From Flavobacterium sp. (GTDB lineage: Bacteria > Bacteroidota > Bacteroidia > Flavobacteriales > Flavobacteriaceae), in contig NVUT01000017.1 of assembly GCA_002733185.1 (NCBI GenBank), positions 31,815 through 65,029 on the forward strand: 33,215 nt of DNA, in the 5' to 3' direction. The translations under genes and the position numbers were made by a program. The notes beneath the pieces are model-generated. The model worked only from the letters and a program-made list of their open reading frames with translations, was not told where the DNA came from and made no database searches. This document shows, in pieces, positions 12,405 to 18,963 of this stretch (position 1 is the stretch's first letter; every line of letters starts with the position of its first letter).

Positions 12405-13139
12405 TTGGAGTATTTTTACAAATATTTATTAAATATTATCCCAATATTTTCACTAGAGGTTATATCGGTAATTGTTGGGATTTATTATTTAAAAAAGAAC
12501 CAGTCAGCTTCTAAAATTGAAACATATTTTTTGTATTATTTAGGGCTTACTGTTGCTGTAGAAATAATTGCTCTTTATACACCAATAGCATATTTTTCAA
12601 ATTATGAATATTTCGGATTTACAAAAGGAAAACGTTATGAAAGAAACTCTTGGTTGTATAATATTTATGTGATTATTAGTTTTGCATTTTATATCTATTT
12701 TTTTTCAACCTTATTAACAAATGGAATTAAACAAAAAACCTTAAAAACAATAAATATTGTTTTTGTTCTTGCAACAGTTTTAAATTTAATGTTAAGTGAT
12801 GTTTTTTATAAAGGGGATTCTATTTTTACGATAATTTTGGGCTCTTTTATTTTATTATTTTCTGTTATTTTATTTTATTTTCAATTGTTAGAATCGGATA
12901 AAATTATAAGTTTAAAAAAAATATTGCCAGTTTATATATCTATAGGGGTGTTGATTTTTTATCTCTGCTTAACTCCAATCGCTATTTTTTCACAATACTT
13001 TAATCCAAAGAATGAATTATTTATTAATGTTAAAGCGATTGTAATGCCATTAGCAAACATAATAATGTACGGAGCATTCATCATAGGTTTTATAGCCTGT
13101 GCAAAAAGCAACCCAAATAAAGATGAATTATTAAATTAA
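12405..13139 (+). CDS. 7TM membrane protein, paralog 1
   Basis: Seven hydrophobic segments by eye; NSWLYNIY, P-Y-IS-G and TP motifs shared with the next two genes; TTG start 3 nt after the upstream stop. Confidence 0.8.
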   Translation: MEYFYKYLLNIIPIFSLEVISVIVGIYYLKKNQSASKIETYFLYYLGLTVAVEIIALYTPIAYFSNYEYFGFTKGKRYERNSWLYNIYVIISFAFYIYFFSTLLTNGIKQKTLKTINIVFVLATVLNLMLSDVFYKGDSIFTIILGSFILLFSVILFYFQLLESDKIISLKKILPVYISIGVLIFYLCLTPIAIFSQYFNPKNELFINVKAIVMPLANIIMYGAFIIGFIACAKSNPNKDELLN

Positions 13140-13145
13140 TAATAG

Positions 13146-13274
13146 ATGATACAACAACAAAAAGCCACCGTATTTTTAAACGCTACCGAAAGCGATGATG
13201 GTAACTCGGCTAATAATTATGGGATTGATCCTTTGAATTTAGGTTTAGGAGGATGGCCGCCTAATGCCTTTTAA
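13146..13274 (+). CDS. 42-codon micro-ORF, duplicate of the C-terminal module of the 12045 gene
   Basis: ATG ATA CAA CAA CAA AAA GCC... gives MIQQQKATVFLNATESDDGNSANNYGIDPLNLGLGGWPPNAF*. Its 83-nt core matches 12288-12370 at 80/83 positions, with all three differences synonymous. Confidence 0.5.
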   Translation: MIQQQKATVFLNATESDDGNSANNYGIDPLNLGLGGWPPNAF

Positions 13275-13276
13275 AA

Positions 13277-14014
13277 TTGGATTATTTTAATAAATTTTTA
13301 TTTAATGCTATTCCTACAGTATTATTAGAGTTGCTAGCAGCATTAGCTGGATTTTACTTTCTGAAAAAGAATAGGAACGCCTCCAAATATGATAAATATT
13401 TTGTTGTGTTCTTGTGGTATACGTTTGCAAACGAAGTAATAGGTGCTTACGCACCTATAGCCTATTTTTCAGAGTATAGAATTTTTGGTTTTATTAAAGG
13501 AACTTTATTTGAAAGAAATTATTGGCTGTATAATATTTATTTTATTATTAATGCTAGCTTTCTAGTTTATTATTTTAATAACCTACTATCAAATAAAAAA
13601 AGTAGGAAAATAACCAATTTTGTCTTGTGGTCTTATGTTTTATCTGCAATAATATTTTTATTTGCAACAGATGTATATTATAAAAGTTACTCTAATTTTA
13701 CTTTTGCTCTTGGAGCAATATTGTTACTAATTAGTATATTGTTATTCTATTTTAGATTGTTAAAAACGGATGAGATTATTGATTTAAAAAAGTATTTACC
13801 AATTTATTTGTCAATTGGTGTAATGTTTTTTTATTTATGTGTAACTCCAATAGAATTATTTGCAAAATATTTTAAAATAACAAATGAAGTTTATGTGGCT
13901 ATTAGAATTAATTTACTGCTAATTTGTAATATTTTTATGTACACTACTTTTATAATTGGCTTTATAGTCTGTGCAAAAGACAAGCCTAATAAAGAAAAAA
14001 GGATTACTAAATAA
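13277..14014 (+). CDS. 7TM membrane protein, paralog 2
   Basis: Homologous by eye to 12405-13139 (NYWLYNIY, SNFTFALGAILLL, LPIYLSIGVMFFYLCVTPIELF); TTG start 2 nt after the micro-ORF stop. Confidence 0.8.
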   Translation: MDYFNKFLFNAIPTVLLELLAALAGFYFLKKNRNASKYDKYFVVFLWYTFANEVIGAYAPIAYFSEYRIFGFIKGTLFERNYWLYNIYFIINASFLVYYFNNLLSNKKSRKITNFVLWSYVLSAIIFLFATDVYYKSYSNFTFALGAILLLISILLFYFRLLKTDEIIDLKKYLPIYLSIGVMFFYLCVTPIELFAKYFKITNEVYVAIRINLLLICNIFMYTTFIIGFIVCAKDKPNKEKRITK

Positions 14015-14026
14015 TACACTAAGAAA

Positions 14027-14716
14027 ATGGATACATATTTTTTTGTTACCTATATTTTTGAAGTAAGCGCATTCTTGTTGTCTATTTATTATTACAAGAA
14101 TCATAAATCTAGAGAGGTACTTTATTTAACTTGGTTTTTGGGTATTACTATTTTTGTTGAAACCATTAGTTCATATTCCTTTTTATTGGATGATCTTAGC
14201 TTTCTATCTCGATTAAAAGGCACCAACTTTGAAAATAACTATTGGATTTATAATATCTATATGATTGTAAGTTACTTGTTTTATGGTTCCTTTTTTAAAT
14301 GGTATTTAAAATCAAATAAAGCAATAAAAATCTTAGACATTCTATCTGTAGTTTATGTTATAGGAAGTATTTTGTATTTAATTATTAATGAAGGTTTTTT
14401 CGAAGGGTATTCCTTATTTACATTACTTGTGGGAACTATCTTGGTGCTATTAAGTTTATTTTACTATTATTATGAAATCATAAAAAATGATAGCTTATTA
14501 AATATAAAAAAATCGGTACCATTTTATGTATCTTTAGGGGCTCTGTTTTTTCACTTATTTACAACCCCAGTTTTAATTTATAGTATTTATTACCGGCAAA
14601 GTTTTAATCCAGAATTCGATACTGTTTTTAAAATAGTTTTATATGGTTCTAATTTAATTTTATATTTTAGTTTTATCCTAGGTTTTATTATATGCTCCAA
14701 GAAAAAGAAAATCTAA
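14027..14716 (+). CDS. 7TM membrane protein, paralog 3
   Basis: NYWIYNIY, SLFTLLVGTILVLLS and VPFYVSLGALFFHLFTTPVLIYSIYY align with the two upstream paralogs; ATG start. Confidence 0.8.
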   Translation: MDTYFFVTYIFEVSAFLLSIYYYKNHKSREVLYLTWFLGITIFVETISSYSFLLDDLSFLSRLKGTNFENNYWIYNIYMIVSYLFYGSFFKWYLKSNKAIKILDILSVVYVIGSILYLIINEGFFEGYSLFTLLVGTILVLLSLFYYYYEIIKNDSLLNIKKSVPFYVSLGALFFHLFTTPVLIYSIYYRQSFNPEFDTVFKIVLYGSNLILYFSFILGFIICSKKKKI

Positions 14717-16253: not shown

Positions 16254-17921
16254 CTATTCATACGCCTTATCATGAACATTAGTAACTGCTCTACCACTTG
16301 GGTCATTCATGTTTTTAAAACTCTCGTCCCATTCCAATGCAATTTTCGTACTACAAGCTACTGAAGCTTCTTGAGGTACCGACCAAGCTGCGGTATCACT
16401 CGGGAAGTGTTCTGCAAAAATAGAACGGTAATAAAATTCCTCTTTACTAGTTGGTGGCTGAATTGGGAATTTATAATGTGCATTTTTTAATTGCTCGTCA
16501 CTTACTTCTTTTTCTACCATTTCTTTTAAAGTGTCTATCCAACTATAACCAACACCGTCACTAAATTGTTCTTTTTGTCGCCAAGCCACAGATTCTGGAA
16601 GCATATCTTCAAAAGCTTTTCTTAATATCCATTTTTCCATACGTTCGCCATTAATCATTTTTTCTTGTGGATTGATACGCATTGCTACATCCATAAATTC
16701 TTTGTCCAAAAACGGAACACGTCCTTCAATTCCCCAAGCTGCTAGTGATTTGTTTGCACGAAGACAATCATACATATGTAATTTGTTTAATTTCCTTACA
16801 GTTTCTTCATGAAATTCTTTTGCAGAAGGTGCTTTATGAAAATACAAATAGCCTCCAAAAATCTCATCTGCTCCTTCACCAGACAGCACCATTTTAATTC
16901 CCATTGCTTTTATGGCTCTAGCTAATAAATACATAGGAGTGGAGGCACGAATAGTAGTAATGTCGTAAGTTTCTAGATGGTAAATTACATCACGTAAAGC
17001 ATCGATTCCTTCTTGAATGGTAAATTTTATTTCGTGGTGAACCGTATCTAAATGGTCCGCTACTTTTTGAGCGGCGGCTAAATCTGGCGAACCTTCCAAT
17101 CCAATTGCAAAAGAATGAAGTTGAGGATACCAAGCTTTGTCCTTATCATTACTTTCGATACGTTTGTCGGCATATTTTTTTGCAATTGCCGAAGTGATAG
17201 AAGAATCTAATCCACCAGAAAGTAACACTCCATAAGGCACATCACTCATTAATTGCCGGTGTACTGCTGCTTCTAGAGCCTCTTTTAATTTTTGAATATT
17301 GGTTTCATTATCTTTAACAGCATCATATTCTTTCCAATCTCTATCGTGCCATCGTTTTAGTTCTCCGTCTGAACTATGTAAATAATGCCCAGGAGGAAAG
17401 AGTTCGATTTTTGTACAAATACCTTCCAACGCTTTTAATTCGGAAGCCACATAGAAAGTTCCGTTTTCATCCCAACCCATATATAATGGAATGATTCCCA
17501 TATGATCCCGAGCTACAAAATATTCGTCTTTTTCAACATCATAGATAGCAAAACCAAAAATACCATTAAGTTCATCTAAAAATGAAACTCCTTTTTCTTT
17601 ATATAAAGCTAGAATGACTTCACAATCTGATTGTGTTTGAAAATTATAAGAACCCTCGAATTGTTTGCGTAATTCTAAATGATTGTAAATCTCGCCATTG
17701 GCAGCTAGAACCAAGTTTTTATCTTCTGAAAACAAAGGCTGTTTCCCTGATGTTGGATCTACAATGGCAAGCCGTTCGTGAGACATTATTGCCTTTTTAT
17801 TATTAAAAATACCGCTCCAATCGGGTCCTCGGTGTCTTATTTTTTTTGACATTTCTAAAATTTGAGGTCTTAGTTTTTCTGAAGGTTGCTTTAGGTTAAA
17901 AGCACATACAATTCCGCACAT
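16254..17921 (-). CDS. asnB: Asparagine synthase (glutamine-hydrolysing), class B
   Basis: MCGIVCAFN (class II amidotransferase Cys2), RHRGPDWSGIF, GVLLSGGLDSSITSAIA, VLSGEGADEIFGGYLYF. Confidence 0.97.
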   Translation of the reverse strand: MCGIVCAFNLKQPSEKLRPQILEMSKKIRHRGPDWSGIFNNKKAIMSHERLAIVDPTSGKQPLFSEDKNLVLAANGEIYNHLELRKQFEGSYNFQTQSDCEVILALYKEKGVSFLDELNGIFGFAIYDVEKDEYFVARDHMGIIPLYMGWDENGTFYVASELKALEGICTKIELFPPGHYLHSSDGELKRWHDRDWKEYDAVKDNETNIQKLKEALEAAVHRQLMSDVPYGVLLSGGLDSSITSAIAKKYADKRIESNDKDKAWYPQLHSFAIGLEGSPDLAAAQKVADHLDTVHHEIKFTIQEGIDALRDVIYHLETYDITTIRASTPMYLLARAIKAMGIKMVLSGEGADEIFGGYLYFHKAPSAKEFHEETVRKLNKLHMYDCLRANKSLAAWGIEGRVPFLDKEFMDVAMRINPQEKMINGERMEKWILRKAFEDMLPESVAWRQKEQFSDGVGYSWIDTLKEMVEKEVSDEQLKNAHYKFPIQPPTSKEEFYYRSIFAEHFPSDTAAWSVPQEASVACSTKIALEWDESFKNMNDPSGRAVTNVHDKAYE

Positions 17922-17991: not shown

Positions 17992-18028
17992 AAAAAAAAA
18001 ATGCCTATCAAGAAAAACTTGACAGGCA
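17992..18028 (-). terminator. Intrinsic terminator in the asnB leader (attenuator candidate)
   Basis: On the - strand: TGCCTGTCAAG-TTTTT-CTTGATAGGCA followed by T10. The single non-Watson-Crick position is G-U on this strand and A-C on the other, supporting - strand function. Confidence 0.85.
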
Positions 18029-18043
18029 CATATAGGTTCTCGA

Positions 18044-18052
18044 CAAGTTTTT
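18044..18052 (-). promoter_or_regulatory. Antiterminator segment of the asnB leader
   Basis: - strand AAAAACTTG (18052-18044) is perfectly complementary to CAAGTTTTT (18021-18013), the inner part of the terminator left arm plus the loop. Confidence 0.65.
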
Positions 18053-18053
18053 G

Positions 18054-18092
18054 TTAAGGTTTGTAATTAGTATTTAAATTATTAGTAAACAT
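18054..18092 (-). CDS. asnB leader peptide candidate MFTNNLNTNYKP (4 Asn in 12 aa)
   Basis: - strand ATG TTT ACT AAT AAT TTA AAT ACT AAT TAC AAA CCT TAA, ending 2 nt before the antiterminator segment and upstream of the terminator and asnB. Confidence 0.7.
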   Translation of the reverse strand: MFTNNLNTNYKP

Positions 18093-18171
18093 TGTCGTTT
18101 GTTTTATTATTTGTTTGGTAAATATATAGTATTTTTTTTAATATCCTAACTTTATATAATTAGTAATTATA

Positions 18172-18963
18172 TTATTCATATTCAAACTTAATGACATAAA
18201 TAGCTGTTCTATCATCTTCAATCTCAAAAACTCTTCCTTCATTATCAAAAACATATTCATAATCGTAATAAGTCAATGGAAAACTATAATCATTTCCTTC
18301 ATATGGATATACCTTTTCTATAGCAAATATATTTTTTGAAAAAAGTGTGTTTCTCCAATCAATTAAAACTCCAATTGATTTTAATAAGTAATACGGATTT
18401 GTTTTATTGGTATTGTAGTCTAGATATTCTACTCGGATTTCAGATTCATTTTCAACAGAAATAATATTCAAGTTTGAATCATAATTATATTTTTTATATC
18501 TGATGTCATTTTGAAAATATCCTGACCTTACTTCTGTTAAATTATTATCACAAAATACTAATTCTGTCAGTTTTTGATTTTCATTATTGAAAACTTCAGC
18601 TTTATTATTAGTCCACTTTATTGTTCTAGATAATTCATTATTGAGATATTCGGAGATAAGCCTACCTTTATTATCGTATTGGTATTGAGATATGTAAATT
18701 TCTCCCGGATTATAAGTAGAGATATATTTAGCGGAGATTACTTTTCCTTCTTCATCAAAAAAATATTCGTTTGTTTGTAACCATTCGTCATTATAATCAT
18801 ATCTAGCTGTAATTTTAAGATAAGAAGTGTAAAAAGAGCTATTAATAATAACATCTGTGTCATTACAAGTTGCAGTATAATTATTATCATCATCACTATT
18901 ACAACTTATCATTAATAATAAGAGTGTTATAAATGCTATTTGATTTTTAATAATTAAATACAT
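18172..18963 (-). CDS. Hypothetical lipoprotein with YD/RHS-like beta-strand repeats
   Basis: Signal ending LLLMISCNSDDD (lipobox); repeated Y-(D/E)-(N/D)-x-G-(K/R) motifs, e.g. YFFDEEGKVISAKY and YQYDNKGRLISEY. Confidence 0.65.
   Translation of the reverse strand: MYLIIKNQIAFITLLLLMISCNSDDDNNYTATCNDTDVIINSSFYTSYLKITARYDYNDEWLQTNEYFFDEEGKVISAKYISTYNPGEIYISQYQYDNKGRLISEYLNNELSRTIKWTNNKAEVFNNENQKLTELVFCDNNLTEVRSGYFQNDIRYKKYNYDSNLNIISVENESEIRVEYLDYNTNKTNPYYLLKSIGVLIDWRNTLFSKNIFAIEKVYPYEGNDYSFPLTYYDYEYVFDNEGRVFEIEDDRTAIYVIKFEYE

Follow-up and report, generated by a model that had tools for sequence, protein, structure and literature searches.

The asparagine synthase gene asnB of a Flavobacterium sp. 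is preceded by an element that is very likely a ribosome-mediated transcription attenuator sensing the charging of tRNA-Asn, a conclusion based on comparative evidence and on analogy, without any experiment. The parts of this element, their order and conservation, the coding constraint on its short Asn-rich open reading frame (ORF) and the covariation of its paired segments are shown by the sequences, and the evidence for selection on every part of the element is strong, with only modest support for the pairing between its segments 1 and 2. The window, the whole stretch of DNA that was analyzed, has 33,215 nucleotides.

Organization of the asnB leader

The features of the asnB locus in the window, all of them on the minus strand, are the following:

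18146-18149 (-): candidate -33 element TTAG, which precedes the -7-like element by 19 nt, read directly from the sequence
18119-18126 (-): candidate -7 element of the leader promoter, TATATTTA, by recurrence of NAnnTTT(G/A) upstream of other leaders
18087-18097 (-): segment 1, CGACAATGTTT, which overlaps the leader start codon and may pair with segment 2
18054-18092 (-): leader peptide ORF, MFTNNLNTNYKP-stop, 12 aa with 4 Asn codons, homologous ORF in 43/43 distinct elements
18041-18052 (-): segment 2, AAAAACTTGTCG, 5' strand of the antiterminator, separated by 1 nt from the leader stop, from the alignment of 38 distinct sequences
18044-18052 (-): AAAAACTTG, the portion of segment 2 named in an earlier reading
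18013-18021 (-): segment 3, CAAGTTTTT, comprising the loop of the terminator and the apical portion of its 5' arm
18002-18028 (-): intrinsic terminator hairpin, TGCCTGTCAAG-TTTTT-CTTGATAGGCA, segments 3:4, covarying helix
17992-18001 (-): terminator U-tract, 10 U, a U-tract being present in all aligned relatives
16254-17921 (-): asnB, asparagine synthase B (glutamine-hydrolysing), the putative regulated gene, NF006949

An earlier sequence-only reading of the window had proposed a peptide attenuator at this position, and all the parts named in it were confirmed base for base on the minus strand. The ORF with four Asn codons (the last one at 18068-18066), the sequence AAAAACTTG with its complement CAAGTTTTT and the terminator from 18028 to 17992 including its ten U residues held, as did the assignment of asnB, with a score of 945.8 bits for NF006949 (NCBIfam, asparagine synthase B), well above the cut-off of 499. 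The start of asnB, placed 70 nt further on, essentially held, with the ATG at 17921 being located 71 nt past the U-run, and the gap between the leader stop and segment 2, given as two nucleotides, is 1 nt in our count. Segment 2 was refined by extension to AAAAACTTGTCG, and the sequence CGACAA, offered as a weaker candidate for segment 1, was refined to CGACAAUGUUU (18097-18087), which can pair with AAAACTTGTCG with a 1-nt bulge and about -9.8 kcal/mol. Folding of the leader strand, proposed as a check, yielded -24.1 kcal/mol, far better than the -11.6 kcal/mol of dinucleotide shuffles (z -4.8).

The promoter consensus of Bacteroidota is TTTG-N19-TAnnTTTG, which is the basis for the resemblance of the TTAG element. 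Most attenuator loci examined have a promoter-like NAnnTTT(G/A) element whose distance to the downstream start codon of the leader is about 28-48 nt; the leader promoter of the window is inferred from the sequence, with no transcription start data.

Elsewhere in the window (12405-14716, plus strand), three multi-spanning membrane proteins of similar appearance (244, 245 and 229 aa) are encoded in succession, and genes for a histidine-kinase-like protein and a response regulator come after them.

Conservation of the leader peptide and of the proposed RNA switch

The upstream regions of a starting set of 80 asnB loci were read, and the combination of segment 2, terminator and Asn-rich ORF was common to the window and 7 of these loci. 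A covariance model built from segment 2 and the terminator only, with the ORF excluded, served to search 399 Flavobacteriaceae genomes, and the search was repeated after refinement of the model with 38 distinct sequences. This ORF-free model revealed the element upstream of asnB in 38 of the 399 genomes, belonging to 23 genus codes; the asnB linkage of the matches was verified with tblastn or from the asnB start. Every asnB-linked element inspected carries an Asn-rich ORF, and the inspected matches unlinked to asnB, all of them lower-scoring, were ordinary terminators without such an ORF. Among the loci inspected in searches at the order (296 genomes) and class (295 genomes) levels, no asnB-linked copies were found outside the Flavobacteriaceae; the matches inspected there as candidate copies were plain terminators without asnB downstream and were rejected. 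The copies of the element form one clade, and therefore these counts are not independent.

The leader ORF has 11-19 codons in all 43 distinct elements examined. The sequence-only reading would have been refuted if relatives lacked a conserved Asn-rich ORF; the outcome was favourable, with a homologous ORF in 43 of 43 elements. Asn accounts for 294 of the 608 residues after the start (48%), whereas shuffling of the leader nucleotides gives 56 Asn codons expected and a maximum of 76; the two other frames contain 4 and 11 AAY codons. Both Asn codons are used (AAT 212, AAC 82), the first Asn is found at codons 2-7, and Asn codons are retained where the neighbouring residues vary. Between 0 and 4 nt separate the leader stop from the segment 2 that follows (1 nt in 39 of the leaders), and the ORF length varies in whole codons, with the start at the same phase to segment 2 in 41/43. 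Four sister pairs encoding identical peptides showed 11 synonymous and 0 non-synonymous differences, a synonymous-only divergence that points to a leader ORF likely maintained under coding constraint, its translation itself being inferred.

The window peptide MFTNNLNTNYKP is among the weakest of these leaders (4 Asn of 11), with stronger peptides in relatives such as MLLFNLNNNNNNNPLP and MFILANNNNNNNNNAKT. Asn runs of up to 10 residues are present, the longest run being 2 in the window and 1 in locus L093. The Asn content of the window ORF alone, with P about 0.02 versus shuffled nucleotides, is only weak evidence, and therefore the case rests on the relatives. The last residue, directly before the stop in 43/43 leaders, is Pro (32) or Thr (11). 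Proline before a stop codon is known to slow termination, and it is possible, as an inference, that the Pro/Thr-stop end slows release and holds the ribosome over segment 2. The third positions of these terminal Pro/Thr codons are variable.

Covariation of the 2:3 and 3:4 pairings, the former suggested as a check in the sequence-only reading, was measured on an alignment of 38 distinct sequences, and both pairings covary. In the terminator helix 3:4, 98.9% of cells were paired with 30 double-change cells, and in the antiterminator helix 2:3 the values were 98.2% and 11 double-change cells (0/500 shuffles). A 2:3 compensatory change at columns 2-40, from A-U to G-C in 10 sequences, is explained only by the antiterminator, because column 40 sits in the terminator loop. 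Extra pairs at columns 11-31 and 12-30 are each formed in 28/38 sequences (GC 16, GU 8 and AU 4 at columns 12-30), and the sequences without them are largely those with G-C at columns 2-40. Swapping segments between species weakens 2:3, with 0/1000 permutations as good, and the result is less clear for 1:2 (26/1000). The mean of the 1:2 duplex is -6.4 kcal/mol versus -3.8 kcal/mol for shuffled segment 1, and the duplex is weak in loci L099 and L184.

Segment 2 covers mainly the loop and the apical part of the terminator. With a modelled ribosome at the first Asn codon, the antiterminator is formed before segment 4 in 42/43 elements, and with a modelled ribosome at the stop it is formed in 2/43. 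The full-length RNA always folds the terminator in the folding model, and the equilibrium energies are about -20 kcal/mol for the terminator structure versus about -7 kcal/mol for the 9-bp antiterminator. Since the terminator far outweighs the antiterminator at equilibrium, switching must be kinetic. In known leader-peptide attenuators the ribosome and the polymerase race (PMC1183508).

Proposed mechanism and alternative explanations

Comparative genomics strongly supports the ribosome-mediated, Asn-sensing attenuator of the sequence-only reading, in the absence of transcription or mutation data. The promoter is inferred, and so are the stalling of the ribosome, the read-through when Asn runs short and the direction in which asnB is controlled. 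In the proposed mechanism, the leader transcript would start about 20-30 nt upstream of the short Asn-rich ORF. Under Asn shortage, a ribosome would stall at the early Asn codons and cover segment 1, leaving segment 2 to pair with the emerging segment 3, which is part of the terminator; the terminator would then not be formed in time and RNA polymerase would read into asnB. A ribosome reaching the leader stop would cover segment 2, so that the terminator 3:4 would form and transcription would stop. If the leader is not translated, both 1:2 and 3:4 are predicted to form, with asnB off. Bacteroidota ribosomes start mostly without Shine-Dalgarno pairing.

Of 32 genomes tested, 30 have AsnRS above the cut-off, among them the two others of the window's genus; it is absent from the window's own assembly, which is 84% complete, and split over two contigs in genome G203. 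As AsnRS is present, tRNA-Asn charging can depend on free Asn, although an additional transamidation route is not excluded.

The first alternative, already raised in the sequence-only reading, is that the hairpin merely terminates the lipoprotein gene upstream (18172-18963), with the ORF being a chance occurrence in an AT-rich intergenic stretch. In its favour, the closest ORF upstream has the same orientation in 32/32 loci examined, and the Asn content of the window ORF taken alone is only modestly unusual. However, the element remains linked to asnB next to upstream ORFs of different sizes (263, about 456 and about 174 aa), the Asn-rich ORF is found in every element with synonymous-only divergence between sisters, and segment 2 and its covariation with the terminator loop would be pointless in a plain terminator. 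This explanation was rejected as very unlikely because the element tracks asnB together with a conserved coding ORF. A second role of the hairpin as the terminator of the upstream gene is possible and has not been excluded.

A second alternative accepts an attenuator and attributes the stall to a nascent poly-Asn/Pro peptide or to general translation stress, not to uncharged tRNA-Asn. It is favoured by the long Asn runs and the C-terminal Pro or Thr in all 43 leaders, and some regulatory ORFs sense translation stress (PMC12121999). Against it, the downstream gene makes exactly the encoded amino acid, Asn codons are retained among variable neighbours, long Asn runs are not required, as the window and L093 leaders show, and AsnRS is present. 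There is little to recommend this alternative, and sensing of tRNA-Asn charging remains the preferred reading.

A metabolite riboswitch, T-box or protein-binding RNA controlling the terminator with an incidental ORF is all but ruled out: a terminator/antiterminator design is also found in riboswitches and T-boxes, but the leader is only about 100-130 nt, much of it an ORF constrained as coding. The T-box/riboswitch identity was rejected without Rfam support, since neither the window nor any of six relatives had an Rfam match that reached the gathering score, and the weak hits obtained were to unrelated families far below threshold.

Known attenuators and evolution of asnB control

The his, trp, leu and related leaders of Proteobacteria, such as the trp and his leaders of Escherichia coli, have a short ORF in which codons for the amino acid made by the pathway abound, and alternative pairings 1:2, 2:3 and 3:4, in which a ribosome at the stop promotes the terminator (PMC1183508). 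The asnB element shares this design, with only modest support for its 1:2 pairing. It differs from them in being Asn-specific and in Bacteroidota, in an antiterminator that engages mainly the terminator loop and apical stem, and in having no Rfam family, with no sequence relation seen. An amino-acid-rich leader with terminator and antiterminator is also common to the attenuators of Actinobacteria (PMC1262725), hisS/hisZ of bacilli (PMC2965389), his operons of Firmicutes (PMC9413887) and a Leu-rich attenuator of Staphylococcus aureus (PMC5794164), which belong to other phyla and respond to other amino acids; several of the leader attenuators outside Proteobacteria were found, like the asnB element, by comparative genomics. 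Genes for Asn synthesis or for Asn-tRNA are known to be regulated by AsnC and by Asn T-boxes. Unlike the asnB element, neither has a translated leader: AsnC is a DNA-binding protein, and in Asn T-boxes the RNA binds uncharged tRNA directly.

According to the 2010 paper on a bacilli example, only Proteobacteria and Actinobacteria had until then provided demonstrated leader-peptide systems, and Bacteroidetes were not mentioned (PMC2965389); the Firmicutes his operons (PMC9413887) and the S. aureus Leu-rich attenuator (PMC5794164) were added later. Known leader-peptide attenuators cover a limited set of amino acids (His, Trp, Leu, Ile/Val, Thr and Phe), and most of them come from Proteobacteria, from Actinobacteria and from certain Firmicutes. 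The literature searched, which left most subscription papers out of its scope, contained no account of an Asn leader peptide and none of attenuation at asnB, so that the suggestion of the sequence-only reading that an Asn leader may be undescribed met no earlier description and priority is unsettled. An Asn attenuator adds one amino acid and, as far as found, one phylum to those known.

In a tree of 117 AsnB proteins, some rows of which are partial, a single branch (SH-aLRT 99) separates the 43 proteins with the attenuator from all the others, consistent with one change. Relatives outside the attenuator clade have a promoter-like element close to asnB, often with palindromic boxes. One exchange of regulatory systems at asnB, between control through DNA boxes and RNA attenuation, in either direction, is suggested by this pattern.

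A bolder reading combines a first Asn-specific leader-peptide attenuator, among the first in Bacteroidota, with close timing of ribosome and RNA polymerase, a single exchange in one clade of DNA-box control for attenuation (or the reverse) and slow release over segment 2 at the Pro/Thr-stop end; taken jointly, these propositions fall a little short of an even chance. An Asn attenuator in Flavobacteriaceae by itself implies that translation in Bacteroidota can keep up with RNA polymerase well enough for attenuation to work, and it would be a natural reporter with which transcription-translation coupling in this phylum can be tested. The switch point in the asnB tree would also offer a clear example of the replacement of one regulatory system by another.

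Palindromic boxes GTT(N5-6)(A/T)TGNAA(C/G) were observed upstream of asnB in loci without the attenuator (L014, L044, L049, L052 and L067). Where two boxes matched they were exactly 31 bp apart, and where a NAnnTTTG(C/T) promoter element matched as well, the second box preceded it by about 21 bp. Transcription-factor control of asnB through these boxes is possible, as inferred from sequence, the factor being unidentified.

A dispersed hairpin, CCTGTCAGGTTTTNAAAACCTGACAGG, resembles the terminator of the attenuator and is present in about 16, 12 and 4 copies in genomes G210, G261 and G044, respectively, with none for the reversed control pattern. It was absent from the six attenuator genomes tested, and consequently the derivation of the attenuator terminator from this hairpin is mere speculation.

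In a locus from another family of the class (L163, G681:C49), an ORF encoding MQFRHNGNFGGNHNVNFNIVNSNNNS, with 10 Asn of 26 residues, is located upstream of asnB, and a G+C-rich hairpin comes next, before asnB. This might be an independent Asn leader, on the basis of a single locus with no relatives compared. In another genome, assembled as a single contig, the asnB match (G131:C1:285796-287433) contains two in-frame stops, and asnB may be broken in this genome.
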